Source: a virus. From it: a stretch of DNA of 27,596 nt. The translations under genes and the position numbers were made by a program. The stretch lies in IMG/VR virus record IMGVR_UViG_3300033144_004189, positions 1 through 27,596 of that record. One strand, written 5' to 3'. Below, in pieces: positions 933-24,466 of this stretch. Within the stretch, counting starts at the first letter, position 1, and the number at the start of each line of letters is the position of its first letter. The notes beneath the pieces are model-generated. The model did no database searches, was not told the DNA's origin, and saw nothing but the letters and a program-made list of their open reading frames with translations.

Positions 933-1459
933 TGGCCTTAAAAAGATACGAAACCCTTAATGCTACCCATGTAATCAACGCAAACACTGACCGTGTTTAT
1001 GTAGCAGAGTATAACTCATGGGAGAAAATTGATCCTAAGCTACATGGATTGATGTATGAAGCATCAAGCTATCCACCAATGCGTAGAGAGTTCACTATCG
1101 TTGGAAAGGAAAAGGTTGAGTATCCTGAGAAGAAGAAGGAAGACAAAAAGAAATTCGACCTTCGCAAATTAAAAGAACCAAAGAAGATATTAATCAGGTA
1201 TGGTGGTAAGCAGCTCGCAGTTGACTTCCACCCTACCAGGTTCGCTCCATCTAAGGAGTTTATATATATGTCATTCTATGGCGGTGATGGCGGTTTCTTT
1301 GGTGAATGGGTATCAACTAATGACCTTGAGAATTGGATCATCGAATACCTGAAGCAGCAACAACTAAGAAGGCTGCAAAGAAGAAGAAAGCTACTCGGTC
1401 AAAGACTCAGCAATAGCTTTTCTAGTTTTAGGCGCTGTCGCAAACAGAGCATTGAATAA
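932..1459 (+). CDS. Hypothetical protein, 175 aa, with suspect 3' end
   Basis: Unknown function. Residues 1-60 look like an ordered domain. A charged linker rich in Lys and Glu follows (EKKKEDKKKFDLRKLKEPKK), then a second ordered block with the aromatic-glycine run YMSFYGGDGGFFGEW. The last 35 residues of the annotated frame are an odd Gln/Arg/Ser-rich tail overlapping the convergent 1638-aa gene by 69 bases. In the -1 frame the same DNA, from 1349 on, reads a Lys/Ala/Thr-rich tail (EAATTKKAAKKKKATRSK) ending at a TAG at 1414-1416, which overlaps the convergent gene by only 26 bases. A one-base indel or a frameshift near 1330-1350 is therefore plausible. It starts at a TAATG junction with the previous gene. 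Confidence 0.6.
   Translation: MALKRYETLNATHVINANTDRVYVAEYNSWEKIDPKLHGLMYEASSYPPMRREFTIVGKEKVEYPEKKKEDKKKFDLRKLKEPKKILIRYGGKQLAVDFHPTRFAPSKEFIYMSFYGGDGGFFGEWVSTNDLENWIIEYLKQQQLRRLQRRRKLLGQRLSNSFSSFRRCRKQSIE
1384..1423. terminator. Possible weak bidirectional terminator between convergent operons
   Basis: Inverted repeat AAAGCTA (1387-1393) and TAGCTTT (1414-1420) with a 20-base loop that holds a small inner GTC-AAA-GAC stem. On the plus strand it is followed by TTTTCTAGTTTT, on the minus strand by a pyrimidine-rich stretch. The minus-strand stop codon lies in one arm and a plus-strand TAG in the other. The stem is short and AT-rich, so the call is tentative. Confidence 0.3.
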
Positions 1460-4400
1460 TCCTATCGCTGGATCTAAGAGTTTTGTTTGTGGCAGTGCTG
1501 CTGTTCCAGTAACAATCGCAGGAGCCACTGTGATCTTATATATTCCCTCTAGGATCTTCTGATTCGATCTCTCTGTAGACTCACCCTCATTGATGGCCTG
1601 AACTCCACGCATGATGTCACCAAGCGACTGTAATGTGTATCCAGTAGAAGCACCGATGATGCTATTTGAAAGGTCCCTTCTGTATTTTAATCCTGACCAT
1701 GCCTGGACTAGATTATCTGCAGCTCCAAAGAAGCCTGCTCTCGATGCAGCCATACTCCAAAACTGACCATTCTCCATCATCTCTTCAAGTCGGTCTTCAT
1801 CTGCTAATCCTTCACGGACCATAGCAATTGCAGCAACACCAGCGTAAGTGGTCATTACAGGTAAGATAGAGATCATCGCCATTGCAGCCCTTTCGGATGC
1901 GTTAAGCTCTTCACCGTGGATCTTACCGCGTGCAGCAGCGATGACTCTCTTTCCGACCAAACCTAAAATATTCTTTTGATATGCGTAGGCAAAGGAAGTC
2001 AAACCGAATATGATCTTACCAACTGGATTGTTAGCGAGCATCGGTTTATCTGTTGCCTTTGGATTCTGGATCGTCTGATCAATAAAGCGTGCGATGGCAG
2101 TGCTATACATTTTGCCATACTTACTATCACCGATGTTCTGAAGGTCAGGTATAGTATCCTGAGAAGCCAGCCAGTTCTTGAATCCATCCATCTCTGACTC
2201 AGGAATACCAAGCGATGATAGATTGATTTTGTTCAGCTTCGAATGACCGCGTATGGATGCCATCAGGAATGCATGTCCACGGACACCAGCAGATATACGT
2301 GAAGCTCTATCAAGAGCAGCCATACCTGATATCTGGAAGGCTCTGTTCGCCAAGCGTTGTCTGCCTGGTGAGTCGAACACATCATTGTATTTGTTGGTGA
2401 AAGTAATTTGGTCCATGCCTGCAGCGATGATACCAAGTGACTCGAATAGTGATGCCCACTCTTTACTGTCACCTCTGCCAAGTAAGGCTTTCATGCTACC
2501 GCCTAAAGCAAGCAATGAATCCTTTGCTGATCCAGTTCTTATACCAACATTCAAAGGCTCACCCATAGCATTGAAGGACGCTCTTGTGAGAAGCGTTACA
2601 ATCATCACAGTATTGAACCATCCAAGTGTAGCATTGACTGCTGATGGTAGATTAGGATTACCCTTACCCATACCTGCAGCAACACGGACTGCTTTAAAGA
2701 ACTCGCGTGCTTCATCATCAGGAACACCTGCTGCCTTCATCGCATTGAGATCATCAAGCATAAACTCACCGTTCTTACCAAATGCTCTTACCTGCTCAGC
2801 GTGCAGCGATGCCTTACCAATGTATTCCTTAACGATACGTACTGGGTCAGTGTCCATGAAGTCAGATAAATACTTCTCAACCACTAAAGGTGGAAGCGAT
2901 CTTGTCTTCAGGAAGTTGCTACCCGATGCCATTTCAAAGTCGTTGTTATTGTCGAAGGTCAAAGTCTTCCATAACTCCATTGCCTGCTCTGCAGGATTTA
3001 GATTCTTTGCCTGGTCCATCTCAATGTCCAGGTCAGGAGTAGGCTGGCCTTGCTGAGCATCAATATCTGATTGGATACGATTAACCAGGTCAGTCTGAAG
3101 CTCTTCATACATCTTGGTTGCTTGATCGACAAATTCCTTCTGTCCATCCTGCACCTTCTGAGTGTCATAGATTCTTTGGAAGTAATTCTCAACAAAACCG
3201 ATTGGTGCTGCACGCTCATAAAGCTTCTTAAGTTCAGTCTCTAATCCCTGGCGCTCAGAGCTTCTACCCTTCTGCTTGCGAAGCTTAGCTAAAGTGTCCA
3301 TGTCTGCAGCGATCTCCTTACGGATACGCATAGCATCAGGTGATAGCTTGTCTTCTAATGCACCGATCTTCCAAAGGTTTCTGTTCATTCGATTGAATAC
3401 CACAGTGAACTCATTACCCATAACTCTTCTCAATTCATTAAGCTTGAGATTGATCTTTTTATTATAGGCTTCGAGTGTCGCTTTATTGATATGGTCACGC
3501 ATCGCTGTGTATATCTTGCGAATAGTATTAACAAGTTCATTGAGTCCAGGTTCACCCTCGATCTTCTTACCTTCAATGATTGCTTGCCTAACCGCTGCAT
3601 TCTGCTCTGCAGTTAACATACTCTTAACACCCTTAATAAATTTGTTCTTTGCTAATACTCTCTGTAGAGCTGCACCAAATACATTAGCAACAATCTGAGC
3701 TTCACGCTCAATACCATTACCCTCATTAAAGTCAGTGCCTACAGATGTCAGGTTGAAATTCTTTCGCATGAGGTCGGCACCTTCTTTAGAACCATGCTTC
3801 TTCTCTGCGCGTCTGATATGCCAGTTCATTACTGATGATGTAGCGAAGAACATGCTATGTATGCCACGTGCCAGGATAGTTCCACCATCCGCAGTACGCA
3901 CAATACCATTCTTAACCATCTCAGTGAATCCACGCTTCGCTTTATTTACTGCTGGCTGAACATGGATTAAATCACCTGAGTCTTTGATGTCCTTCTTTGC
4001 ATTCTCGATACGGCCTACATTCTGTGGACCCTGAGCATCGTTATCATCTAAGATACCAGGTTGAACTTCTGGTGACTTTAAAATCAATGGAGCTTCTGTT
4101 GGCTCCTGGTATGGACGCAAGGTAGGATCATTGTAAACCCGATCAGTCATACCCTGCATAGCCTTAGTAGTCTTTGGCTTCTCATCCTGAACTGGAAATT
4201 TAACGAGCTTCTTTTTAGGTTTACCCTTGTTGTTGCGCTTGCCTTGACGCGCACGCTCTATCTGCTTTTGCCTTGATTTGGATATTGGTGGTGCGTCCTT
4301 GCTCCTTTTCTCGGCTTCCTGTTCAGTAAGCTTATCTGCCACTTCTCCTGCACGACCCTCAGTAACACCTGCAGCTGCCTCTTCCTCAAGACGAGTCGCC

Positions 4401-6307
4401 TGGTCGGAATCCAGTTCTTCTCTAATACTTGCTTGATCTTCTTCGCTGGGAGTTCTTCTGTCGATCTTTTGTCTACGTTTTGCATTTGGGGTTTGTTGTG
4501 ATGGTTTACCTTTACGCTTCATTACAGCAGCACCTTCATTCAGTGCCTTCTCAAGCAAGGTATTTGAAATATCCTTACCGCCTATGAGTCCTTTGATCGC
4601 ATCAACAATCTTCTGGAATAGGTTCTTCTCAGTGCCTTCGACTTTGATGCCAGCCAATTGATTCTGGAACTCTACATTACTGAATAGCTCAGCAAGGAAC
4701 TCATCAATATTAGATAGCGCGTTCTCGTTACCACCTGGAACATTCAGTGCCTCACTCGCATTAAGTGCAATGCGTGCCTGAAGGAAGCTATCAACCAGGT
4801 TGCGAATAGGCTCTGATACAGTCTTGTCATTACGCACCGCTTCCAGGTTCTCCAAGTATTGAACTGGTGAAAGATTCTCAGTCTGAGTTCTGATGCTTTC
4901 TGGTAGCTCCTGGCTAGTCAGAGCGTGGACAAACTCATGTATGGATACTTCCAGGTTCTCACCGACAGGAGATAGGAACACAGTATTGGAATCAACATCG
5001 TAGAATCCAGCTGCATTTCCCTCTCCTTCTTTAAGACCAAATGCTCTGTTGGCCTCTTCCTGGGTTATAAATTTAACTGCTGCTTGTAATCCAAGCTTGT
5101 TTCTAGCGATCTTACGAATGCCACTTATTAAATTGTTAGAGTCTACATCCTGAACTGTTTTACTTAGAGAGTCCAATACAGATGAAACGGTTGCAGTACC
5201 CTTCGATATCTCATTGCGAGTATCATCTGGTATAGGCTGAGTGTTTAAAGGCTGCAGATCAGAATCCGTTTCTGCTTCTGTGATAGGCTGAAGGTTTGAT
5301 TCCTCTGTCTCTACATTGATTCCATCTAAAGGCTGAAGATTTTTCTCGTCAGTTTCAGTATTGATATTGCCTGTAGCTGTAGGCTGAGTAGCAGATCCAA
5401 TAGCGATCTCACCAAGACCAGGTATGATTTCAGCAATCGCTTCAAGTGTGATATCACCTGGCGAGAACTCCTGACCAGAAAGCTTCTGAGCTGTTGCTTC
5501 ACCTGCACCACCGAATCCAGCTTGTGCAAATGTTTCACCAAGTCCACGTAATGCCATCTCGCCTCTTCCAGCTCCACGCTTAAGCGCCCTAACAGGTCGA
5601 GTTATACGGCCTGCTGTTCCACCTGATAGCGCATCAAATATACCAACACCTATAGCTCTATTCTTAGCGAACTCTGTTGCCTCTGCTGACACTTCTGGAT
5701 CAGACAGGAACTCTTCAAGCTCTACAGGATCTGATATGTTTATGCCTTGCTCTCTTGCAAATTCCAAAACAGATAATCCAAACTCTGTAGAAGCTGATCC
5801 ACCACCAGCACCAGCAGCAATAACCAATGGAGCTACAGGCGCTGCAGGAGTGAACACAGATAATGCTCCCAATCCTGCAAGTCCGATTGATGGAAGGGAT
5901 GTAACGAGACTTTCCGCTACTGTAGATCCTACCGCTTTAGGATTTGTTAATGCAGCAACAACAGCGTCACCAAAGTTTTCAGCTGAACTGATTTCATTTA
6001 ATCCTGCTATAGTATCATCATCTGCAGCGAACCTCATCTTGTCTCTCTCAGCATCAGCGATGTCTCGTGCTGCACCAGCTATATCCTGACCAAAGAAAGG
6101 AACATCTTTCAATGCGGTAGCCTGCAGGACATTCAAAGCTTGCCTTGAATTAGCAGCACCTCTCATTAGTGGAGCAGCACTGCTATCCTCTACAAAGATT
6201 AAATCATCAGAAGGTAAAGGCTGAAGTCTGGATTCATCCGTGACAACTGGTATATTGCCTATCGGTTGAAGCTTAGATTCATCTGTGACTGTTCTTATGG
6301 ATGACAT
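1391..6307 (-). CDS. Very large internal virion / DNA-ejection protein with zinc-peptidase-like motif, 1638 aa
   Basis: This is the last and largest gene of the late operon, in the place of T7 gene 16, and probably one of the virion proteins injected with the DNA. It is likely a multi-domain protein. The N-terminus carries a repeated TDExxLQPL motif (residues 7-32, again 317-354) around a hydrophobic Gly/Ala-rich segment (about 131-172). HEFVH at 457-461 matches the zincin HExxH signature, and the later DEFLAELFSN (535-544) could supply the third ligand. A basic Lys/Arg-rich linker (about 600-700) leads to long helical regions and a C-terminal part with hydrophobic stretches (around NPVGKIIFGLTSFAYAYQKN and the region after it) that could contact the host membrane. 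No transglycosylase motif was seen. The start overlaps the upstream stop (TAATG). The ejection role is inferred from size and position; the peptidase idea from the motif alone. Confidence 0.8.
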   Translation of the reverse strand: MSSIRTVTDESKLQPIGNIPVVTDESRLQPLPSDDLIFVEDSSAAPLMRGAANSRQALNVLQATALKDVPFFGQDIAGAARDIADAERDKMRFAADDDTIAGLNEISSAENFGDAVVAALTNPKAVGSTVAESLVTSLPSIGLAGLGALSVFTPAAPVAPLVIAAGAGGGSASTEFGLSVLEFAREQGINISDPVELEEFLSDPEVSAEATEFAKNRAIGVGIFDALSGGTAGRITRPVRALKRGAGRGEMALRGLGETFAQAGFGGAGEATAQKLSGQEFSPGDITLEAIAEIIPGLGEIAIGSATQPTATGNINTETDEKNLQPLDGINVETEESNLQPITEAETDSDLQPLNTQPIPDDTRNEISKGTATVSSVLDSLSKTVQDVDSNNLISGIRKIARNKLGLQAAVKFITQEEANRAFGLKEGEGNAAGFYDVDSNTVFLSPVGENLEVSIHEFVHALTSQELPESIRTQTENLSPVQYLENLEAVRNDKTVSEPIRNLVDSFLQARIALNASEALNVPGGNENALSNIDEFLAELFSNVEFQNQLAGIKVEGTEKNLFQKIVDAIKGLIGGKDISNTLLEKALNEGAAVMKRKGKPSQQTPNAKRRQKIDRRTPSEEDQASIREELDSDQATRLEEEAAAGVTEGRAGEVADKLTEQEAEKRSKDAPPISKSRQKQIERARQGKRNNKGKPKKKLVKFPVQDEKPKTTKAMQGMTDRVYNDPTLRPYQEPTEAPLILKSPEVQPGILDDNDAQGPQNVGRIENAKKDIKDSGDLIHVQPAVNKAKRGFTEMVKNGIVRTADGGTILARGIHSMFFATSSVMNWHIRRAEKKHGSKEGADLMRKNFNLTSVGTDFNEGNGIEREAQIVANVFGAALQRVLAKNKFIKGVKSMLTAEQNAAVRQAIIEGKKIEGEPGLNELVNTIRKIYTAMRDHINKATLEAYNKKINLKLNELRRVMGNEFTVVFNRMNRNLWKIGALEDKLSPDAMRIRKEIAADMDTLAKLRKQKGRSSERQGLETELKKLYERAAPIGFVENYFQRIYDTQKVQDGQKEFVDQATKMYEELQTDLVNRIQSDIDAQQGQPTPDLDIEMDQAKNLNPAEQAMELWKTLTFDNNNDFEMASGSNFLKTRSLPPLVVEKYLSDFMDTDPVRIVKEYIGKASLHAEQVRAFGKNGEFMLDDLNAMKAAGVPDDEAREFFKAVRVAAGMGKGNPNLPSAVNATLGWFNTVMIVTLLTRASFNAMGEPLNVGIRTGSAKDSLLALGGSMKALLGRGDSKEWASLFESLGIIAAGMDQITFTNKYNDVFDSPGRQRLANRAFQISGMAALDRASRISAGVRGHAFLMASIRGHSKLNKINLSSLGIPESEMDGFKNWLASQDTIPDLQNIGDSKYGKMYSTAIARFIDQTIQNPKATDKPMLANNPVGKIIFGLTSFAYAYQKNILGLVGKRVIAAARGKIHGEELNASERAAMAMISILPVMTTYAGVAAIAMVREGLADEDRLEEMMENGQFWSMAASRAGFFGAADNLVQAWSGLKYRRDLSNSIIGASTGYTLQSLGDIMRGVQAINEGESTERSNQKILEGIYKITVAPAIVTGTAALPQTKLLDPAIGLFNALFATAPKTRKAIAESLTE
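5246..6289 (-). repeat. Five copies of a TDExxLQP(L/I) peptide motif in the 1638-aa protein
   Basis: Two copies lie at residues 7-32 (VTDESKLQPIG, VTDESRLQPLP; nt 6212-6289) and three at 317-354 (ETDEKNLQPLD, ETEESNLQPIT, TDSDLQPL; nt 5246-5359). Similarity is also visible in the DNA, which reads GGCTGAAG or a close variant at the LQP codons. The copies bracket the hydrophobic N-terminal domain. Confidence 0.7.
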
Positions 6308-7869
6308 TATCTAACTAAAGGACCAGGTGTTTGTGGAAATTCATTTAAGAACATTTGAATGACTTCATCTCTGACCTCATCTCCTGTCTTAATTACTTTG
6401 CTTTTACCACGACCACCTCTTGTCCGATCTCTAAAATCTGCGTTCTGTATAGTTTCAAATGCAGCTAGGATATCATTCAACTGCTCTTCTTCAGTTTTGT
6501 TTACACGCTTACGACCTCTCGGACCTACGCTTTTGGTTTGCCTTCTGGCAACATCAACTGATCTTTTAACATCTGAAGGTAGATTGCTGAAGAATCCTGT
6601 TTTGATTCGCTCGATTTCTTCACCGATATCTGGTGACTCTTCACCTTCATCAATGGTTTTATTGCCAGGTTTATCAGGAAAGAAAACAGAATTACCATCT
6701 TCATCTAATCTCTTTTGACCAGGTATAGGCACCTTCTTTCCGTCAATCATTTCAAACTTGAAAGCCTTTTCACCAACCCTCTTTGAATCAAGCTCAGCCT
6801 GATCTGTTAATACCAGGTTGTCATCAAACCAAAGGAATCCGTCTTCAACTCTAGTCAACTGATTAATGACCTGCTCCCATGCGCCAGTTGGTGTAGCGCC
6901 ATTAGCAAGCAACTCTTCAGCAGCAGTGCGAAGGAATAAGAAGTCATCATCTTCGATATCCATTTCCATAGTGCCTATCACTTGACGACCTAGAACCTCC
7001 ATGTCTTCGCTGGTTTGAGTTGTGACCTTTTGCCTTTGACCTTTCGCAATAGCACCCTTAGTAATTTCTGTTAGTCTGCTTTGAGCGCCTTTAAGTTTCT
7101 CAAGGTTCTCTCTTCCTTCAAAGTCTCTGTCTTGCTCAGCTTTCTTTTCTTTCATGGTGCGATCAGATGCATCATCGAGCTTCTGCTTCTCAGCCATAGC
7201 AGCTTTGATTGTTGGAGCTAACTGTCTAATCCTTGGATCATCAGATAGTGCTGCAATATTTAAGAAATTATTAACGAACTCTTGTGTCTTTGCAGGATCA
7301 GGTGAGTTTTGTAAAGCATCGACCGCTGTTCTGAATACGCTCTGCTGAACCGCAGGGATATTCACTTGGTTTACAGTTTCAGTACCCATTGGAGCTTGCG
7401 CTGGCAATCCTTTGATAGCTTCAGTGAATCCTTCTGGTAAAGTAAACTGAGGTGGATTAGCACCGCTTAAATCAAGCGCCTCATCAGACATGAATGCTGG
7501 CTCAATAAAGTCACCGATGTTTACATCAGATTGAATTGGTGCGCGTATTCCTTCAGGAATTGGAACCTGCCTGTCAACCTGCATCATAGTAGGGTTAAGT
7601 AGTATATCTCCTAATGATGCGCCAGTGCTTGAAGCTATGTCTCTAAGAGCAGCAGCATCCATATCTGCCTTCTCTTGTTTAGCCATCTGCATGTCTATCA
7701 GGTTTAGATTTCTACGCTTAAGCGCATTGTTAAGCCTTGCTTCTTCACGAATCAATTCGTTACGTGGCTTTGCTGCCTGGAATTGTAAGAACGCTGTTCC
7801 AAGGTCAGCGATGCTTGCACCGATATCTGGATTGCGAAAGCTTGTGTTTCTGAATCTGCCTGTTGCCAT
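6307..7869 (-). CDS. Putative internal virion protein, 520 aa
   Basis: Lies between two small MC-starting proteins and the giant ejection protein, the place of T7 gene 15, so an internal-core or ejection role is the best inference. The N-terminus (MATGRFRNTSFRNPDIGASI) and the following 80 residues are helical and rich in Ala, Arg and Lys. A long charged helical stretch around residues 230-280 (KAEQDRDFEGRENLEKLKGA) could form a coiled coil, and the C-terminal half is charged and soluble. No enzyme motif was recognised. A good Shine-Dalgarno (AAAGGA) precedes the ATG, and the stop overlaps the next start (TAATG), implying coupled production with the 1638-aa protein. Assignment is by position and composition. 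Confidence 0.7.
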   Translation of the reverse strand: MATGRFRNTSFRNPDIGASIADLGTAFLQFQAAKPRNELIREEARLNNALKRRNLNLIDMQMAKQEKADMDAAALRDIASSTGASLGDILLNPTMMQVDRQVPIPEGIRAPIQSDVNIGDFIEPAFMSDEALDLSGANPPQFTLPEGFTEAIKGLPAQAPMGTETVNQVNIPAVQQSVFRTAVDALQNSPDPAKTQEFVNNFLNIAALSDDPRIRQLAPTIKAAMAEKQKLDDASDRTMKEKKAEQDRDFEGRENLEKLKGAQSRLTEITKGAIAKGQRQKVTTQTSEDMEVLGRQVIGTMEMDIEDDDFLFLRTAAEELLANGATPTGAWEQVINQLTRVEDGFLWFDDNLVLTDQAELDSKRVGEKAFKFEMIDGKKVPIPGQKRLDEDGNSVFFPDKPGNKTIDEGEESPDIGEEIERIKTGFFSNLPSDVKRSVDVARRQTKSVGPRGRKRVNKTEEEQLNDILAAFETIQNADFRDRTRGGRGKSKVIKTGDEVRDEVIQMFLNEFPQTPGPLVR

Positions 7870-9435: not shown

Positions 9436-9891
9436 CTATAATGTTTTACGGGCTAAAAACCCAATCTTTTTAAATCCAAATTTAGCAAGGAAGCTCATGT
9501 ATCTTTCATCCACTATACCTGCAGATGAACCAACATTGCAGTGCTTAGCACCGCGCTCCTTTGACCATGTTACAAAACTATCTAATAACTGAGCAGCTAC
9601 CTTTAATCCCCTGTGTTCAGGAGTAATGTATAGCGCTAAGTCTGAGGTGATCTGATCGTCACCGAAAAATGTAGGAACACAAAGACCACCCATCATTCCA
9701 ACTACAAGGCCATCGTCTGTCTCTGCAACAGCCATGTAATAAAACGGATCTTCGTGAAGTGAGTAATCTACAATGTTCTGAATCTTCTGGTGATCATAAT
9801 CAAGTGAATTAAAGTTACTCTCTTGATGCATTTCGTAGCCTAGTTCAGCCACGCGTTCCTTATCATGTATATTTGCAGGTCTAATTTTCAT
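9436..9891 (-). CDS. GNAT-family N-acetyltransferase, 151 aa
   Basis: A complete GNAT domain. The N-terminal beta-alpha unit is MKIRPANIHDKERVAELGYE. The central strands AVAETDDGLVVGMMGG and SDLALYITPEHRG lead into motif A, with the acetyl-CoA pyrophosphate loop HRGLKVAAQLL at about 93-103. A C-terminal half carries YMSFLAKFGFKKIGFLARK. About 150 aa is the usual length. Family knowledge: these enzymes move an acetyl group from acetyl-CoA to an amine; the substrate cannot be read from the sequence. It overlaps the nozzle gene by four bases (ATGA) and precedes the ejection genes, so it is made late. A target among virion or host proteins is inference. Confidence 0.85.
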   Translation of the reverse strand: MKIRPANIHDKERVAELGYEMHQESNFNSLDYDHQKIQNIVDYSLHEDPFYYMAVAETDDGLVVGMMGGLCVPTFFGDDQITSDLALYITPEHRGLKVAAQLLDSFVTWSKERGAKHCNVGSSAGIVDERYMSFLAKFGFKKIGFLARKTL

Positions 9892-12983: not shown

Positions 12984-14054
12984 TTACGCGATTTCCAATA
13001 CAGCGTGAACATTGAAACGATTAAAGACAATCGCTCCTGACCATGTTACGGCCTTGTTCATTACGTACTGGTCTTCAGGACGCGCTGGTGCGTGTGTAGC
13101 GAAGTCATCACCCTCTAACGGACGCAACTGGAAGTGGCGCTCGTCCATGATGTAACAGAACTTCGTACGGTCAGTTCCACCGATAGTGTCATCGAGTGTT
13201 GGATCGTAGATGAAATCTACACCCTTCCAACGAAGACCACCAACAGAAACGTCACCGCCACCGCTGAAGCCATCCAAGCTGTAGTTACCGTTAGCTCTGA
13301 ACTCAGCTTCCATTGCTTGAAGGAAGTCAGAACCACAGTATGCCACAGAAGGCTTACCACGGAAACGCATAAGCTGACGCATGATGATCTGAATGTTTGT
13401 GATCAGTTCACCACCGTTAGCAGTGTTTGATGTTAGGACATTACCATTAGCAGTAGTGAAAGCAAGGTTACGCCAGAAAGCGTTGCCTGCCACAGAGCGG
13501 TCAATACCTGCTACTGTGCCTACTGATGGAACGTCAGTGATTAGACCTGTGATACCAAGGATGTCTGTAGGTGATGCAGTTCCGTTCTCCCAGTATTGGA
13601 GATTAAGAGACTCGATCATACCTTCAGTCATGTCATCCATCTTGTCGTCAAGTAGGTCAGTTAGACGCTGCTTGTCTGAGTCAGATGCCTTGGATGCGTT
13701 AATACCCATGTCAGCATCAGTGACGATGAAACCTGCTTGGTGAAGCTCAGTTCTTGTCAACTGAATACCTGCGTGATACTCACGCCATGTGTATTCTGCC
13801 TGTTGGATACGATTAGTGTCACCGTAGGTAACAACGTCATCGTTTGTGAATGATGTGAATCCGATTTGGAAGTCACCACCCTTAACTTGGACGGTGATCA
13901 CATCACGACCTGCTGCGAAAGTACGCTGACGCGCACGCATACGTTTCAAAAGTGGACGGTCCTGAATTGACGATTCGATAGCATCCCCTCTGATATGGTG
14001 CTTCAGCGTAGTGTTAATTATGTTTTGGAGCTTTGCTCCCGATAATGCTGGCAT
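12984..14054 (-). CDS. Major capsid protein, 356 aa
   Basis: Directly follows the scaffold gene and has the size and composition of an HK97-fold capsid protein. The N-terminus holds a helical arm (QDRPLLKRMRARQRTFAAG) followed by strands ITVQVKGGDFQIGF. A long spine-like helix (DSDKQRLTDLLDDKMDDMTE) and Gly-rich loops such as DGFSGGGDVSVGG follow, and the end returns to strands (MNKAVTWSGAIVFNRFNVHA). About 416 copies per capsid would be typical of such phages, so high expression is expected. The leader is A-rich without a clear Shine-Dalgarno, and a strong terminator follows. The order portal, scaffold, capsid makes the call safe, although the exact capsid family is not determined by eye. 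Confidence 0.85.
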   Translation of the reverse strand: MPALSGAKLQNIINTTLKHHIRGDAIESSIQDRPLLKRMRARQRTFAAGRDVITVQVKGGDFQIGFTSFTNDDVVTYGDTNRIQQAEYTWREYHAGIQLTRTELHQAGFIVTDADMGINASKASDSDKQRLTDLLDDKMDDMTEGMIESLNLQYWENGTASPTDILGITGLITDVPSVGTVAGIDRSVAGNAFWRNLAFTTANGNVLTSNTANGGELITNIQIIMRQLMRFRGKPSVAYCGSDFLQAMEAEFRANGNYSLDGFSGGGDVSVGGLRWKGVDFIYDPTLDDTIGGTDRTKFCYIMDERHFQLRPLEGDDFATHAPARPEDQYVMNKAVTWSGAIVFNRFNVHAVLEIA

Positions 14055-15222: not shown

Positions 15223-17310
15223 TTATGCGAGGGATTGATTGCCACCTGGAATATTAACGGGTAGCGCACCCCCTTGTGCGTTTGGATCTGTTGCAGGATT
15301 ACCTGTCGATGGTTGAATCTGTTGATTCATTGCAACGATAGATGGTAGATCCTCATCAAAGAAATCATTAATGTCATGGTTCGCATCGAGTGTCTTAAGG
15401 ATCATGCTCGCAACCTTCTTAGGTTTGAATCCTGGCACTTGAACGATCAATGGTGTAGCACGCTCGATCTTACCAAGCTCTGCTGCAGCATTTGGCTTAC
15501 CTGATGAACCAGCTTCGATACCAAGCTCAAACTCAGACTCGATGGTTGAATCAGGAAGGTCAGGCCATACTGCTCCTGGTCCAACGATCTCCTGAACGGT
15601 TTCCAGGTTAAGTTCCTTCAGCATCACCTCTAATGATCCACGTGCGATATCACTTAGGAAATCATCAAGCTCATCAACATGGCTCGATATAGTGGTCTGA
15701 GATGCGCTCTGAGAGATTGATGTCTCTGTAGCACTCGCGCCTGATGTAGCACCAAGTAGAGCTTCCTGAACACCAAGAGTAAGCTCCACGTCATCCACGA
15801 TATGATTAGTAACGTAAAGATTTGGGTCCACTCCTGGCGTTGGTATAGGCTGCAAAAGATCCTCAATCCGTTGACCAGATGTTAATCCCTTCATTGGAAG
15901 CACTGAGAATGCTGGGTGATTTCTCAGTAGTGCCACGTCTTCATCATCAAGACTACCATCAACGTATGCGAGTTTGGGTCTTGCAGCTCTTCTATGTTCG
16001 CTCAGACCCTGGCGAGACTTATTAAACTCGTTTTGCATTGGTGCCATAGTCTCGATGTCTGAAGGTCCGTAAATTGAATCTTCATCCTCGATTGAACTTG
16101 GACAGTAAGAATAAATTGGGAAGAAGCGCTGAAGCCTTACATTTGGCTCGCGTGGCTCTTCACAGAAATTGTTAAAGCCAGGAGTGACAGTATACATCAA
16201 ACCAGTTGGCTTATGGTAGTATTCGTAAACCTTGACAATCTCCTGTTCGATGAACTCCTGCTGTGAGATATCTTCATCGTAATTGTCTTCAATCGCTTTT
16301 TCTAATGTGAATGTTGTGGCACCAGCCTCTTCAAAATCGAAACCGTAAATCTCCGAAGCAGTGTCAGGCTCGAAGTGAAACTCTTCTGCAATCCAATCAG
16401 CACCAACAAAACCATTAAGGTTAGTGCAATTCGGGTCAACTTTAACACTCGTACTGGTAGGGAATCCATACGTTAATCCTTCACTTAAAATAATCTCTTC
16501 TTGTTGCTCAAGTTGCTTTAGTCCTAGTCGCAACTCTTCAATCTCAGCATCTCCTTCATTTACTTCACCTTTCTCGATCTTATCAGCAAGATGCTCCAAA
16601 TGAGCAAGTCGAGCGCGATGGTCATTTATCTGTGATTGAACTTGTGGACTGTGAGCCATGTCACGCTGGAAGTCTACCTTAACATAACCAACGAAATTAG
16701 TAAGCATACGCTTGATAGTCTGCTTCAGGTTCGTTTTGAAGTTAGGCTCTGCTTCACCAGTGTAATACTCCATAAGGATCTCTGCAGTCTCACCGACTTT
16801 ATTGATCATGTTCTTACGAAGCGTTCCTCTTTCATAATCCTTGAGTAATGCTACATCATTAGGATCTGCAGGAAGTCCTGCCTGGGCGCGTTGCTGTATA
16901 TTAGCAAGCGCCATCTGAAGGCTTTCCATTTTACCATCCCATAGAGCGTAGTATAATCTTCTCTTAGCCTTTGCAACGAAAGTAGGATTACGCGCATACA
17001 TCACAGATGTTGTCTGATGAATGTAGCGTCTTGAAATATTTGCTGTGTAAAAAGACTTTGGAGTATGCTCATCGCGTCCGTTTTTCACCTGGAACATATT
17101 ACGCTTCATCTGGTCGAACACAGGCTGGAACATACGCTCAGACTTCTCGATGTCTTCAAGTATCTTCTTGACCAGGTTCTCACGCTGAGGTGGCACGTTT
17201 CGCAAATCTTCGCGGTCATCCTTGTCACCTTCTCTACTACCTAATGCCTTTGGAGCAGTAGATGGTTTGTCTTCCCTTAACGGTCCTAGTATTCCTAAAT
17301 CCTTAGTCAT
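15223..17310 (-). CDS. Portal protein, 695 aa
   Basis: Follows terminase by two bases and precedes the scaffold, the usual place. The N-terminal part is helical (NLVKKILEDIEKSERMFQPV). Residues about 215-275 form a charged heptad-like stretch (HRARLAHLEHLADKIEKGE). The middle contains the portal-like FFPIYSYCPSSIEDEDSIYG followed by the long helical wing region (MAPMQNEFNKSRQGLSEHRR). The region around ATETSISQSASQTTIS and EALLGATSG is typical of stem and crown areas of large portals. The Gly/Pro/Asn-rich C-terminal tail is probably disordered. A modest Shine-Dalgarno (AGGA) is visible. Expected role: dodecameric ring at the packaging vertex that binds terminase and the adaptor. Confidence 0.85.
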   Translation of the reverse strand: MTKDLGILGPLREDKPSTAPKALGSREGDKDDREDLRNVPPQRENLVKKILEDIEKSERMFQPVFDQMKRNMFQVKNGRDEHTPKSFYTANISRRYIHQTTSVMYARNPTFVAKAKRRLYYALWDGKMESLQMALANIQQRAQAGLPADPNDVALLKDYERGTLRKNMINKVGETAEILMEYYTGEAEPNFKTNLKQTIKRMLTNFVGYVKVDFQRDMAHSPQVQSQINDHRARLAHLEHLADKIEKGEVNEGDAEIEELRLGLKQLEQQEEIILSEGLTYGFPTSTSVKVDPNCTNLNGFVGADWIAEEFHFEPDTASEIYGFDFEEAGATTFTLEKAIEDNYDEDISQQEFIEQEIVKVYEYYHKPTGLMYTVTPGFNNFCEEPREPNVRLQRFFPIYSYCPSSIEDEDSIYGPSDIETMAPMQNEFNKSRQGLSEHRRAARPKLAYVDGSLDDEDVALLRNHPAFSVLPMKGLTSGQRIEDLLQPIPTPGVDPNLYVTNHIVDDVELTLGVQEALLGATSGASATETSISQSASQTTISSHVDELDDFLSDIARGSLEVMLKELNLETVQEIVGPGAVWPDLPDSTIESEFELGIEAGSSGKPNAAAELGKIERATPLIVQVPGFKPKKVASMILKTLDANHDINDFFDEDLPSIVAMNQQIQPSTGNPATDPNAQGGALPVNIPGGNQSLA

Positions 17311-17312
17311 AA

Positions 17313-18896
17313 TTAAAATCCTGCACCTGCTTTTTTAAGTTCTTTTCTTCTTAATTCCCTTCTGCGAGTTTCTTTAAACTCACCGAAAGTGCCTCTTTTG
17401 AATTTCTCCTTGTACCCCGTATGAGGTTTTTTGCCGACCTGCTGCGCAAGCTTTAGTCCGATCAAGGATAAAGCATCAACGAAATCATCGAATCTGCTAC
17501 CACCACCAAATTTTAAAATCTGATTCTGCGCATTGCCGAACCAGTGAGCGTTTCTTGGAAAGTAAACCTTACCCATAGCCATATAACCTTTTATTGACTG
17601 AGCGCGTTGCTCTTTATTCTGAGTAGGTGTTACTTCATCTATCGCTGCAAAAACGCGTTCTTCGCGCATTCTCTTGAATAGGAACGGACCAATGGACTTT
17701 GATATCTGTCCTTTCTCAGCCCACCATGTAATCGGCTTCCATCTATTAATGAGGTCCAGCTGAGCTTCAACAACTTTGTCAGCAGGAAGCTTATGCCACC
17801 AACAATCGAGAATCCAAATATTGTCATGCTGATCAACACCGACCACAAGATGAACGGTGCTATCATTATGCTGATTTGTAGAAACCGCAAAGTCGCTTGA
17901 TGCGTAGATTCTGAGTTGGTCATGAGGTGGCTCATCTCCTATCTTATACTCCTTGATAGATTCTGCGGTGAAAAATACACCATCATCGGGAGTAGGGTTC
18001 TGTTGCTGTAGGCAAGAAAAACCGCGTGGGTCCTGCCTGCGCATTCCTTCAAGAAATTCTTTACCGAACTTGGTAGGCCATAGAGGTTCACCATACTCTC
18101 TGCCCATTGGATCTGTATCTTCATCATCACAAAGAGCAGGTATTCTAACGTAGTCCCACTTCGCTGCTTCAGTAGGATCGTAGTTAGGACTGTCAGGATC
18201 AAGCAAACGACCAATAAGGTCATTGTCACTCCATCGAGTCATAATGATAATGATAGCAGCCTGGTCATTCATCAGACGCTGTGTAGCGACCTTATTATAC
18301 CACTGCCAGCATTGCTCCATTGTAGTAGGACTTGTGGCTTCCACGTCATCCTTAACCAAGTCATCAACGATAAATAGATGCGCACCCTTACCACCAGTAG
18401 GACCACCTCTACCAACGAAAATGCCGACACCACCCTGTTCAGTTTGGATACGGTCTTTCGCCTTACCACCTTTACGAAGCTTCACATCACTGAATACTTC
18501 CTGGTAGCGCTTGGTTGCCATGGTATGATTCACATCAATACCACACTCCTTAGAAAGCTCACCACCGTATGTTGCGTAGATTACGTGATCATTAGGATGA
18601 TGGCCTAAATAAAATGGAATGAACTTCTTTGCTGCAGATTCTGTCTTACCGTTACGAGGTGGCATAGAAAGAATCATTCGCTTCTTCAGTCCTAGATTAA
18701 TTAAATCGAGCTTCTTACAAATCAACTCATGGAATGGCTGAGCATCATATGTAGTTTTATTGTAGTCATCAGAGTCAGCAGGATCAGGAAACATCAACTT
18801 GATAAAGTCGAGGTAACTTCCCTTTGCACGCTTACATGACTGCAGTTGATATGCCTGCTGCAGTCTTTGTTGCATGTCCTGTTCTTTTGTACTCAT
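17313..18896 (-). CDS. terL: Terminase large subunit, 527 aa
   Basis: ATP-driven DNA packaging motor with a nuclease domain. The N-terminal ATPase has a Walker A loop MPPRNGKTES at 78-87, a Walker B strand LFIVDDL at 174-180 and the following IIIIMTRWSDNDL at 215-227, which fits motif III. The C-terminal RNase H-like nuclease is suggested by ASSDFAVS (Asp335), the WAEKG Glu394 and the late FDDFVDALSL (Asp470-474), typical acidic residues that bind metal. Length is normal for the family. The gene starts four bases inside the receiver-domain gene upstream and is followed by the portal. No small terminase subunit is recognisable next to it. Confidence 0.95.
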   Translation of the reverse strand: MSTKEQDMQQRLQQAYQLQSCKRAKGSYLDFIKLMFPDPADSDDYNKTTYDAQPFHELICKKLDLINLGLKKRMILSMPPRNGKTESAAKKFIPFYLGHHPNDHVIYATYGGELSKECGIDVNHTMATKRYQEVFSDVKLRKGGKAKDRIQTEQGGVGIFVGRGGPTGGKGAHLFIVDDLVKDDVEATSPTTMEQCWQWYNKVATQRLMNDQAAIIIIMTRWSDNDLIGRLLDPDSPNYDPTEAAKWDYVRIPALCDDEDTDPMGREYGEPLWPTKFGKEFLEGMRRQDPRGFSCLQQQNPTPDDGVFFTAESIKEYKIGDEPPHDQLRIYASSDFAVSTNQHNDSTVHLVVGVDQHDNIWILDCWWHKLPADKVVEAQLDLINRWKPITWWAEKGQISKSIGPFLFKRMREERVFAAIDEVTPTQNKEQRAQSIKGYMAMGKVYFPRNAHWFGNAQNQILKFGGGSRFDDFVDALSLIGLKLAQQVGKKPHTGYKEKFKRGTFGEFKETRRRELRRKELKKAGAGF

Positions 18897-19228
18897 TTTA
18901 ATATCTCATCAATTTTAGATTTCAAATTACTTTTATCAATTACATCAGTAAATTCATCGCAGGTCTTCTTATCGGGTAAGTGACCTGTAACCAAATATAC
19001 TGGAATTGTCAGATTTATTTCATCTACAATTTTAAGTACGTCCTTTGCTGTTTTAAGACCCATATAAAAGTCAGTGAAGACCGCCTCGATGTCGTCATCA
19101 GATTCTAAGATACTCTTAGCTTCCTTTGGTGAGGATGCATAAATAGTCTCTACATGCGCGTATTCCTTGACGTGGTATTCCCACATCTTCTGGTCGTGCA
19201 TTAAATCATCTATGACAAGTATCTTCAT
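18893..19228 (-). CDS. Stand-alone CheY-like response-regulator receiver domain, 111 aa
   Basis: A complete receiver fold and nothing else. The first strand MKILVIDD ends in the acidic pair Asp7-Asp8, strand 3 AVFTDFYMG carries the phospho-acceptor Asp53, strand 4 VYLVTG has the switch Thr81, and the strand-5 position DVIDKSNL has the conserved Lys98, followed by Ser rather than the common Pro. Family knowledge: such domains accept phosphate from a histidine kinase and change partner binding. There is no output domain, so it would act by protein contact, perhaps competing with host regulators; that role is inference. It overlaps the membrane-protein gene (TAATG) and terL (ATGA), so it is made with the late genes. 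Confidence 0.85.
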   Translation of the reverse strand: MKILVIDDLMHDQKMWEYHVKEYAHVETIYASSPKEAKSILESDDDIEAVFTDFYMGLKTAKDVLKIVDEINLTIPVYLVTGHLPDKKTCDEFTDVIDKSNLKSKIDEILK

Positions 19229-20819: not shown

Positions 20820-21284
20820 TTAGTCCGTTAAACGATTATACAGTGCTTGGTGAAGTAATACTTTACCATGTGTTTGAAAGTTTCTTTTTAGGCGATTCTC
20901 TAATGGCGCTATCAAAACTTTAGTTATATTCTTTTTTCCCTTTGATGTATCGCAATTCTCAGAAGGTGAATTAACTATCATCCTTCTGCACATCATTGGT
21001 CTGTCTTCATAAACCGAACATTCACCATTCTTAAGAAATACACATGACTTTTCAGAGTTTCCCCAATCTCTTACTTGAGACTCTAATTTATGAATATTAA
21101 TAGAATCGCTATGCTTTAGGAATAATATCTCAACCTCTTCAGGTAAACATGCTACATGTTGATGACAACAAAAGCTACAACCCTTGCCACAAGATATAGG
21201 ATTACCTTTCTTGTCGTAGTGATCTACTACTTGATCCACCATCTCATCGGTGAACTCACGCTCTACTGATATTTTTAACTTCAT
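20820..21284 (-). CDS. YkgJ-family cysteine-cluster (putative Fe/Zn-binding) protein, 154 aa
   Basis: Cys residues follow the YkgJ/UPF0153 pattern: CGKGCSFCC at 32-40, Cys46, then CVFLKNGECSVYEDRPMMC at 81-99 (Cys81, 89, 99) and Cys111. The pattern CxxxCxxCC followed by C-x7-C-x9-C is characteristic of this family, described as a zinc- or iron-chelating, possibly Fe-S, protein whose biochemical role is poorly defined. The rest is charged and helical. The start overlaps the fibre-associated gene by four bases (ATGA) with GGAGG right at the ATG. It is unusual among fibre and lysis genes; whether it serves phage protein maturation, redox handling or the host is inference. Confidence 0.85.
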   Translation of the reverse strand: MKLKISVEREFTDEMVDQVVDHYDKKGNPISCGKGCSFCCHQHVACLPEEVEILFLKHSDSINIHKLESQVRDWGNSEKSCVFLKNGECSVYEDRPMMCRRMIVNSPSENCDTSKGKKNITKVLIAPLENRLKRNFQTHGKVLLHQALYNRLTD

Positions 21285-22237: not shown

Positions 22238-24466
22238 TTAAGTAGTTTTAAGTTTACCCTCAAAGAAGACTCTTACTGTATGCTGTGAGTGAGTTGATGC
22301 AGTTGTTACATCAAAACTAATCCACTGAGTTCCGTCTTCATTCAACAGACTATCGTTCTTCTCTCTTTGATCTGGCGCTGTCTTACTTGCTGCCATCTGA
22401 GATATTGCTGTGTAATAATCATCGTCACCACCACCAGCGTCATCGCCTGTTCCTGTTCTATAAAACATCTGCGCTCCATCAAATGTGATATTCTCATTAA
22501 TAACATCAACCCTATCATTTAAGAAGGTTGTATTCGCTGGGAATTGACCTGCGAAGTTATGCACTAATGTTAGAGATGCTGTTCCATAGCTTGTAGGAAT
22601 AAGATTATTGGTCGCTCTGAAATATGTTCCAGTATTGTTGTTAGGTGCTCCGACATTCGCAAAGTCACCATCAGATGCTCCTGTAATCTGGTAGACTGCT
22701 CCACCATCTACATTGCCTGAATTTTGAGTATCACCTACAGCTTTAGTGGCATCAATTACTTGAGACGATACAACACTGTTGGTTCCTGCTTGGCGATCAA
22801 GGTTTGCACCAGTGTTATCTTCAGGTGCTACTATATGGAAACCTCTCATGAGAATTGTGTTCTCAATCCCATTATCCATATTATCACCAATCGCAATCGC
22901 ACGTGTTGCAAGAGACTCAGCAGCGAAACCTATTGCTATGCCACCAATTGTAGTCGCTCTAGTCTCAGCACCAACAACTGTTGTGAAAGCTTGAAGGGCT
23001 CTAGCATTGTGACCGATAGCTACAACGCGCTCTGTGTTGTTACCTTGTCCAGCCAAGTGACCTATAATTACTGATTGGAAACTTACTGCACCAGTTGCAC
23101 CAGCTTGAGGTCCAATAACAACCATGTCTGCACCTTCTGCAGATGATACTGTTCCGATAGCGATTGATCGTGCGTTTACTGCTCTTGCTCCTTGTCCAAT
23201 AGCAATAGCATGAGTCAATCCTACTGCCACCCCACCAGCATCAGCATCTTGACCCATTGCGATACAGTGCGCATTTCTGGCGATAGGTGATGTTCCAATA
23301 CCATCGTCACTGCCTAATGCAATAGATGCAACTCCAAGTGCTCTTGCACCGTTGCCTACTCCATTATGAGCACCAATCGCAGTTGCGCCTTGAGCGGTAG
23401 CATCCGAAAAGGCACCAATAGCTATAGCGTTAACTCCAGTTCCTTCTGCTTGCTGACCGATGCCGATACCAAAAAGACCTGTTAATGTAATACCCCAACC
23501 AATAGCTATACCACTGGTTCCAGACTTGCAACCGTTGCCACCAATAGCAATACCAGAATTTGCGCCTGCGAAAGAATTTTGACCAATAGCGACACCAGCG
23601 CCACCTGCACTAGATGTAGTTGCGCCAAATCCAAGAGCAACAGCACCAACAGTATTTGCATCAGCACCAACTCCAATAGCAATACTTTCGTTTCTTGCAG
23701 CCAAAGAGTTTCTACCAACAGCAATTGAGTCATCGCCTTGAGCGCCACGAACTGCATTACCCCACTCAGAGCCAATAGTAACTGAATTAGCGCCTAGATT
23801 ATTTAAAGCTGCAGCACCAGTAGTTTCTTTCGCGCCAGCTATAAGCGCTGATGCTGGGTGATTACCTGCTGGCTGATTGGCAACTAAGTTACCCCATTGA
23901 AATACTGGTCCACCAACAAGTCCTGTTAATGCAGCGCCTGTGACTTTTCTTTTAGCAAAAGCATCTGATGCACTTTCAATAACGAAAACATCGGCTGCAT
24001 CAATTGTTGCCTTATTTGTTATTCCGTTAATTTCTGCTCCTACATTTACGTGAAGAGCGTGCTGGTCAAACTTAAGATCGAATCCGAATACCAATTGTCC
24101 TGTGAGGTCCCCACCGTTATCTTCAACAAGTGTAACTCCATAGGTTACATATGTTCCATTGTCTGTGATGGAAGTAAGCTCCCACTTCTGATAAATGTTA
24201 GAATCAACCTTATCACGAATATTAAAAATATCTTTCGTGCGTGGATACTCAAGTAATGCCTCTTTGACATTCTTACCTTTTGAGTCAATCGCACTGACGT
24301 AAATATTGCCTGCTGTGTTTTGAGGTGAAGCATCCCAAACAATTTGACCATCGCCAGGTGGCGGTGTTGTTCCAGGTCCTACTTCTGCACCAAACGAAGG
24401 TATTGAGCCAGCGCCACCACCGCCTGCTCCTACCAAAAGTGCATCTCCTATAATTGGTGCGCCCAT
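22238..24466 (-). CDS. Large tail fibre with YadA-head-like repeats, 742 aa
   Basis: The N-terminus is Gly-rich (LLVGAGGGGAGSIPSFG), then a predicted beta region (residues 40-210). Residues 228-528 hold about 21 copies of a short motif ending in a hydrophobic-hydrophobic-x-hydrophobic-Gly block (SIAIG, AIAIG, GVAIG) spaced about 14 residues apart, the hallmark of the left-handed beta-roll head of trimeric autotransporters such as YadA. The C-terminal part (about 530-742) has Asn/Thr/Gly-rich strands. Expected to be a trimeric adhesin reading the host surface. It has a clear Shine-Dalgarno (AAGGA) and lies downstream of the collar fibre. Family knowledge: such repeats bind surface structures; the target here is not known. 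Confidence 0.8.
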   Translation of the reverse strand: MGAPIIGDALLVGAGGGGAGSIPSFGAEVGPGTTPPPGDGQIVWDASPQNTAGNIYVSAIDSKGKNVKEALLEYPRTKDIFNIRDKVDSNIYQKWELTSITDNGTYVTYGVTLVEDNGGDLTGQLVFGFDLKFDQHALHVNVGAEINGITNKATIDAADVFVIESASDAFAKRKVTGAALTGLVGGPVFQWGNLVANQPAGNHPASALIAGAKETTGAAALNNLGANSVTIGSEWGNAVRGAQGDDSIAVGRNSLAARNESIAIGVGADANTVGAVALGFGATTSSAGGAGVAIGQNSFAGANSGIAIGGNGCKSGTSGIAIGWGITLTGLFGIGIGQQAEGTGVNAIAIGAFSDATAQGATAIGAHNGVGNGARALGVASIALGSDDGIGTSPIARNAHCIAMGQDADAGGVAVGLTHAIAIGQGARAVNARSIAIGTVSSAEGADMVVIGPQAGATGAVSFQSVIIGHLAGQGNNTERVVAIGHNARALQAFTTVVGAETRATTIGGIAIGFAAESLATRAIAIGDNMDNGIENTILMRGFHIVAPEDNTGANLDRQAGTNSVVSSQVIDATKAVGDTQNSGNVDGGAVYQITGASDGDFANVGAPNNNTGTYFRATNNLIPTSYGTASLTLVHNFAGQFPANTTFLNDRVDVINENITFDGAQMFYRTGTGDDAGGGDDDYYTAISQMAASKTAPDQREKNDSLLNEDGTQWISFDVTTASTHSQHTVRVFFEGKLKTT
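22883..23785 (-). repeat. Coding repeat: YadA-type SIAIG head motifs in the 742-aa fibre
   Basis: About 21 degenerate repeats of 9-24 residues (most about 14), each with a four- or five-residue hydrophobic block closed by Gly. The DNA is repetitive too (CCAATAGC-type words), so slippage or recombination between copies could vary fibre length. Confidence 0.75.

Follow-up and report, generated by a model that had tools for sequence, protein, structure and literature searches.

A zincin-like metallopeptidase domain in a giant, probably ejected protein of a podovirus-like genome

Introduction

In 2017, Iyer et al. (PMC5512222) described a zincin-like metallopeptidase (MPTase) domain, with 12 clades, in phage polyvalent proteins. 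In other phages such domains often escape recognition or bear the label of a cell-wall enzyme. That work and a preprint on the structure of phage N4 (PMC12633501) noted a zincin domain in the virion RNA polymerase (vRNAP) of N4, and a C1 domain has also been reported for the vRNAP of Pectobacterium phage CB1 (PMC8472413). Here we analyze IMG/VR virus record IMGVR_UViG_3300033144_004189 (the window, which is the entire 27,596-base record and possibly a fragment), whose giant protein of 1638 amino acids (aa) carries a domain of this kind. Judged by its sequence, the domain is a new member of the already described MPTase family.

1391-6307, minus strand: giant protein, 1638 aa, last open reading frame of a podovirus-like structural module
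4481-5146, minus strand: zincin-like metallopeptidase domain, aa ~388-609 (~220 aa), range from a profile alignment (modeled with AF2 as aa 381-600)
4925-4939, minus strand: HEFVH, aa 457-461, predicted zinc ligands H457 and H461 and general base E458
4676-4705, minus strand: DEFLAELFSN, aa 535-544, position by arithmetic from the start of the open reading frame
4700-4702, minus strand: E536, predicted third zinc ligand, 75 residues past H461

Like the MPTases of Iyer et al. (2017), the domain combines a HExxH helix and a Glu-bearing helix that follow a helix and three strands, and it lies in a giant, probably injected protein encoded near virion genes. Unlike the polyvalent proteins of that study, the window's giant has no detected second enzymatic domain. 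The domain is homologous (~1e-26) to C1 of N4 vRNAP gp50, which has HExxH and a later Glu (PMC12633501; PDB 9pnr, 11gp). N4 vRNAP is also a giant ejected protein, as we presume for the window's, but the latter has no detected RNA polymerase domain and its length is less than half. The same domain occurs, likewise at a late position in the structural module, in phiKMV-type proteins (phikF77 ORF37; compare 9sfn_G) and in PhiM1 gp48. Unlike the window's giant, which has no match to it in PHROGs, these belong to phrog_342, the family of T7 gp16-like internal virion proteins. Several database records and the PhiM1 authors name such proteins endolysin or exotransglycosylase (PMC11440229). With T7 gp16 itself the giant shares its position and presumed ejection role, whereas the T7 protein has an SLT transglycosylase and no zincin match.

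Results

Active-site residues and their conservation

HEFVH is the sole HExxH of the giant. A sequence-only reading had placed it at aa 457-461, noted DEFLAELFSN about 75 residues later and proposed that the two form the active site of a zincin. The placement and the spacing are right. A zincin-type site is supported, with its third ligand supplied by the DEF motif: H457, E458, H461 and E536 are each invariant in 15/15 aligned proteins. The nucleotide range it gave, 4684-4939, is right at the HEFVH end, whereas its lower coordinate falls inside DEFLAELFSN, 8 nt short. HExxH appeared in 0.475% of 20,000 shuffles of the giant, which has 11 His. HExxH followed 60-90 residues later by E[FWYLIM]xAE appeared in 0/20,000, although this second pattern was composed after the sequence had been seen.

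By sequence comparison, conservation is stronger evidence for the motif than these shuffle statistics. In a 15-protein alignment H457, E458, H461 and E536 are the only invariant columns, and the next best columns reach 13/15. The rows are the window and 14 of 297 records found by tblastn (below), fetched for spread before their motif was seen; tblastn recruitment still favors conserved stretches, and E536 was absent from every search pattern. Retention of the motif in relatives is upheld in part: all four residues are kept in 14/14 relatives, but the positional counterpart in Rhizobium phage RHph_N65 lacks HExxH. Of the loci found by separate pattern searches of IMG/VR, the 31 listed all have HExxH. 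The A3 alignment comprises the window and 23 of them (24 rows), after omission of loci on the same contig, near-identical copies and short pieces. As the search patterns contained HExxH, partly or wholly, its presence in 24/24 rows is partly built in; E536 is kept in 23/24. In one locus (L026, 2401-3192) Asp replaces the third-ligand Glu in an otherwise conserved zincin.

Homology spans the whole domain. Against 50,697 phage records, tblastn with the whole giant matched 37, of which 20 are P. putida phages; their 'internal virion protein with endolysin domain' aligns with giant aa 411-615 or 428-615. A search with just the domain (216 aa), at E up to 1, matched 297 phage records. The matches listed, many of them individually weak (E 0.01-0.8), include internal virion proteins of the phiKMV and PhiM1 types, N4-type vRNAPs and a crAss-like protein that its depositors call 'putative RNAP associated protein fused to zincin protease'.

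Profiles reach proteins of solved structure. A 14-row profile of the window and 13 loci, searched against PDB, matched 9sfn_G ('internal virion protein', 1337 aa) at 3.3e-34, N4 vRNAP sequences at 6.2e-27 to 7.2e-26 and PhiM1 gp48 (8vb2) at 0.0057, while gp10 of 23sg (0.061) and lethal factor (0.11) were not significant. A 4-row profile gave 4e-11, 4.1e-13 to 7.7e-13 and 5e-7 for 9sfn_G, N4 vRNAP and PhiM1 gp48, respectively. In the profile alignment 9sfn_G has HEAVH and the matching Glu; it may come from a phiKMV-type phage, as phikF77 ORF37 is also 1337 aa long with HEAVH. The domain boundaries come from a profile that contains the window as a row, so the window's own score against it is by construction. 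Pfam, PHROGs and NCBIfam name no domain for aa 388-609, the nearest Pfam family being PF20573 'putative metallopeptidase' (0.13, below its cut-off).

HExxH can arise by chance in an unrelated helical protein, as T7 gp16 illustrates: its HERLH at aa 559 has no zincin profile match and is a chance motif by profile score. For the window's giant we regard such an origin as highly improbable and reject it on these alignments, as homology spans the whole domain, the residues are invariant and HExxH is rare among shuffles. As far as sequence can tell, aa ~388-609 are a genuine zincin-type domain with two His ligands, a general base and a third ligand.

Predicted structure of the domain

The AF2 model of aa 381-600, built from 24 alignment rows, has a mean pLDDT of 74.3 and a pTM of 0.72. 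DSSP assigns a helix at model positions 10-25, strands at 31-33, 54-57 and 62-65, a helix at 72-87 that bears HEFVH (77-81) and a helix at 154-163 that bears E536 (156). In the model, this succession of one helix, three strands, the helix with HExxH and the helix with the Glu follows the zincin core of Iyer et al. The check put forward with the sequence-only reading, that a predicted structure should bring the ligands together, is approached here indirectly, through the order of the HEFVH and E536 helices along the model.

The VIA comparison (Z, root-mean-square deviation, aligned residues) matched the model to PhiM1 8vb2 (6.9, 3.7, 108), the putative metal-dependent hydrolase 3dl1 (6.9, 4.0, 147), lethal factor 6zxj (6.7, 5.1, 141), PPEP-3 (6.3, 4.8, 150), PPEP-2 (6.3, 4.7, 142), ArdC (4.9, 3.3, 60) and N4 (3.8, 5.4, 166). 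A mycobacterial regulator (6cz6, 6cyy; Z 6.3) is also among the matches. Most rows are zincins, in part by their titles. BFVD returned 13 matches below 0.001; the best (2.2e-6) carries no name, and the set includes the internal core proteins of Ralstonia phage RSB3 (4.5e-5) and Pseudomonas phage Ab05 (1.4e-4).

The giant protein and its structural module

The giant closes a minus-strand module that runs from the terminase large subunit through a portal candidate, a 362-aa acidic protein, the major head protein, proteins of 155, 265 and 574 aa, a GNAT acetyltransferase and proteins of 275, 230 and 520 aa.

17313-18896, minus strand: terminase large subunit (phrog_38, 9.9e-102)
15223-17310, minus strand: portal candidate (weak match, 0.0067)
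12984-14054, minus strand: major head protein (phrog_9953, 3.7e-51)
9436-9891, minus strand: GNAT acetyltransferase within the structural module (Pfam 6.4e-07; phrog_1249 3.1e-24)
6307-7869, minus strand: 520-aa protein, at the same position as the 'putative injection protein' of RHph_N65; the likeness is of position, with no significant sequence match
1457-3085, minus strand: C-terminal region of the giant, aa 1075-1617, similar to a giant protein of Microcystis phage Mae-Yong1326-1

The C-terminal region resembles virion proteins. The Mae-Yong1326-1 giant matches it at 27.0% identity (tblastn, 1e-47), a structural protein of Pseudomonas phage KPP25 matches aa 1147-1528 at 23.6% (tblastn, 1e-20), and aa 1148-1449 match phrog_30152 'virion structural protein' at 2e-19. 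The sole other PHROGs match, to phrog_12027, is weak (0.062). From the position in the module and this C-terminal homology, the giant is probably an ejection (internal virion) protein, which supports the setting first proposed for it.

Pfam gave no SLT match in the giant up to E 1, and Pfam, PHROGs and NCBIfam name no second enzymatic domain; long stretches match nothing. With the zincin as the sole domain recognized in its sequence, we class the giant as a bearer of the MPTase domain only and leave polyvalent status aside. Six exact peptide patterns searched in IMG/VR found no close full-length relative.

The endolysin label of T7-type internal virion proteins

The sequence-only reading held that ejection proteins at this position usually carry a transglycosylase. 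T7 gp16 does: the Pfam control finds its SLT at 1.7e-31, and the zincin profile scores -1.2 bits. Among zincin-bearing T7-type relatives the expectation fails, with SLT in 0/3 (CB5 gp51, ErraM gp36 and phikF77 ORF37; Pfam at 0.1) and zincin profile scores of 36.7, 55.3 and 124 bits, respectively. All four proteins match phrog_342, T7 gp16 from profile position 4 and the others from 192 (CB5), 140 (ErraM) and 169 (phikF77). HExxH and the Glu are kept in the aligned CB5 and phikF77 proteins. The CB5 protein has 1263 aa, the length of PhiM1 gp48, with HEAAH at 381, and aa 415-563 of phikF77 ORF37 also match a virion RNA polymerase phrog (6.1e-17). These three phrog_342 internal virion proteins, with a zincin and no SLT match, are encoded at:

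L049, 4101-7892
L001, 4567-9144
L056, 1762-5775

The name 'internal virion protein with endolysin domain', which has been copied widely, seems to be a family name carried over from T7 gp16. The profile scores suggest that the endolysin label is wrong for at least the three T7-type relatives tested, which carry a zincin instead of the transglycosylase, though these proteins could still hold a transglycosylase too diverged for Pfam. In PhiM1, the 'endolysin/exotransglycosidase-like' domain was assigned by BLASTP and DALI to TEP residues 268-528 (PMC11440229), and our zincin-profile match in the gp48 chain, at 374-513, lies within that region.

In the literature consulted we found no naming of a zincin in phiKMV- or PhiM1-type internal virion proteins, although the supplement of Iyer et al. 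(2017) may include them. A review of ejection proteins (PMC8954989) and a further paper (PMC10386132) do not mention protease, zinc or peptidase, and two other papers speak of a metallopeptidase only as a gene or protein of its own. Within the texts consulted, the relabeling of phiKMV- and PhiM1-type proteins was not found stated, and our claim to it is limited to that extent.

Proposed function and its alternatives

We consider it likely that the giant is an ejection protein at the T7 gp16 position with an active zincin protease that acts after ejection. H457, H461 and, from a later helix, E536 would hold a zinc ion and E458 would activate water. The giant would be packaged in the head and exit through the tail at infection; the most likely target of the protease would then be a protein of the host's envelope or cytoplasm, or a partner in the DNA-entry channel. 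We infer zinc binding, proteolysis, packaging in the window phage, the post-ejection timing and the substrate alike.

Several points weigh against this proposal. The case for activity is built on sequence and a model, and the giant's packaging and ejection are deduced from position and homology. The window protein alone has no phmmer match in PDB, so the homology to solved proteins rests on the profile. Foldseek of the model against PDB gives 0 matches below 0.001; the best is N4 vRNAP at 0.056. In the proposal's favor, entries of N4 vRNAP and lethal factor fill the first eight rows, but most rows beyond rank 8 are unrelated folds. Every VIA Z is below 8 (best 6.9), a range that the tool labels common. 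Two related phages add to this. RHph_N65, whose terminase ranks first (45.6%) and whose head protein ranks second of three, resembles the window in gene order: a GNAT and the 'putative injection protein' are followed by a 708-aa protein and then a putative lysin. The 708-aa protein stands at the giant's position, shows no clear similarity to the giant and has no HExxH, nor does a 496-aa protein of the same phage. The Mae-Yong1326-1 giant has HELGH (954) and HEWAH but scores weakly against zincin profiles (4.6, 5.5 and 11.7 bits), and the best stretch of the 11.7-bit match (1046-1115) lies past HELGH. The KPP25 structural protein has HESMH, which weighs on neither side.

The absence of HExxH from the RHph_N65 protein at the same position indicates that the domain is dispensable in this lineage. 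Because of that absence and the weak similarity in Mae-Yong1326-1, the zincin domain is probably an exchangeable module, as far as these sequences indicate.

The zincin might instead cut the giant itself, readying it for packaging or freeing its C-terminal part. Example sites would be the charged linker past aa 600 and the vicinity of the LQP repeats that precede the domain. Iyer et al. proposed self-processing for P1 DdrB, a protein cut prior to its packaging, and give it as one option for N4-like proteins (PMC5512222). In the window, a charged stretch that looks of low complexity by eye follows the domain and three repeat copies precede it. N4 vRNAP, however, is packaged unprocessed (PMC5512222) and the N4 structure work reports no evidence of degradation (PMC12633501). 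PhiM1 gp48 is modeled in the pre-ejection particle (8vb2) over 1103/1263 residues, with the domain within the chain and both sides of it included, although a disordered loop may hold a nick. As vRNAP is packaged unprocessed and gp48 is modeled through the domain, cutting before packaging is unlikely in N4 and PhiM1, and we think self-processing unlikely for the window's giant.

Alternatively, the domain could open the cell wall by cutting wall peptides, taking over the job of the T7 gp16 transglycosylase. The three relatives with a zincin and without the SLT of T7 gp16 would fit this role, as would the lack of a peptidoglycan hydrolase among 18 window proteins scanned with Pfam. The related solved folds are protein-cleaving zincins, which counts against it. 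The 574-aa protein of the window also has a weak match to a phrog 'amidase' (0.013), so a separate wall enzyme is possible. The PhiM1 authors propose wall degradation for the overlapping region, but PhiM1 has a separate lysozyme-like domain in OEP (PMC11440229), and the N4 authors put the C1 domain in the cytoplasm after ejection (PMC12633501). A wall-opening role of the domain appears rather improbable to us.

A dead enzyme, with the fold kept as a structural or docking module and the chemistry lost, would accord with the absence of a known activity and with PhiM1, where the corresponding domain is inserted in the TEP hub and may guide DNA (PMC11440229). E458 speaks against this. Although not a ligand, it is kept as strictly as the ligands are, across the window and 14/14 relatives, and catalysis is therefore favored over a structural metal; we give the dead-enzyme explanation little credence. 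Our preferred reading remains a protease that would act after ejection.

Phages of the phiKMV type trigger cleavage of the host RNA polymerase alpha subunit by an unidentified protease, and the GNAT protein Rac suffices without phage (PMC7552054). The simple answer that the ejected zincin is this protease was rejected, as Rac alone gives cleavage. The window also has a GNAT in its structural module, which is likened to Rac by class alone.

N-terminal repeats and other window genes

The giant carries a short motif in tandem at its extreme N-terminus, and five degenerate copies in all:

6215-6307, minus strand: N-terminal tandem motif, 2 copies of VTDESxLQP, score reached by 0/300 shuffles
5240-5362, minus strand: three more degenerate copies of VTDESxLQP, upstream of the zincin domain

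A short doubled motif at this site is lineage-specific among the giants and reached p <= 0.05 in 13/24 N-termini (300 shuffles each; N-termini taken from the first Met): those of the window, L002, L003, L006, L009, L013, L038, L039, L040, L043, L045, L048 and L050. L002/L003, L009/L013, L040/L045 and L043/L048 seem to be pairs of relatives, which leaves fewer than 13 independent cases. In 11 stretches searched at a set stringency, the motif matched in the giant only, apart from loose matches in L050 that lie in other frames. In the window, the portal candidate and a 492-aa protein contain looser LQP strings. Our guess is that the N-terminal repeat is a docking or packaging signal. Other giants (L005, L015, L020 and L022) and the RHph_N65 protein (L064, 8757-10883) begin, as seen by eye, with a different segment of ~35 aa that follows the pattern xxxDGxxxxFPDGTxxxxI.

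Three further genes lie outside the subjects above:

22238-24466, minus strand: protein of 742 aa that bears YadA head repeats (Pfam 2.4e-13), perhaps a tail fiber or spike
18893-19228, minus strand: 111-aa protein with weak response-regulator-type matches below Pfam cut-offs; it overlaps the terminase gene at the latter's start
20820-21284, minus strand: protein with a CxxCxxCC putative zinc- or iron-chelating domain (1.3e-07)

Implications

An unannotated giant phage protein is now tied to a domain family in which some structures have been solved, and its predicted active-site residues are named and can be tested. If the protease is active, its substrate at the start of infection would be directly testable in laboratory phages (N4 and P. 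putida phages). More tentatively, and with considerable doubt, we speculate that across unrelated short-tailed phages, namely T7-type relatives such as phiKMV and PhiM1, N4-type phages, a crAss-like phage and the window phage, an injected zincin takes the place of the wall-cutting enzyme of gp16-type ejection proteins, or is added to it, and cleaves a host protein while the DNA enters. If so, these phages would share an overlooked first strike that is delivered with the genome and is partly annotated as endolysin.

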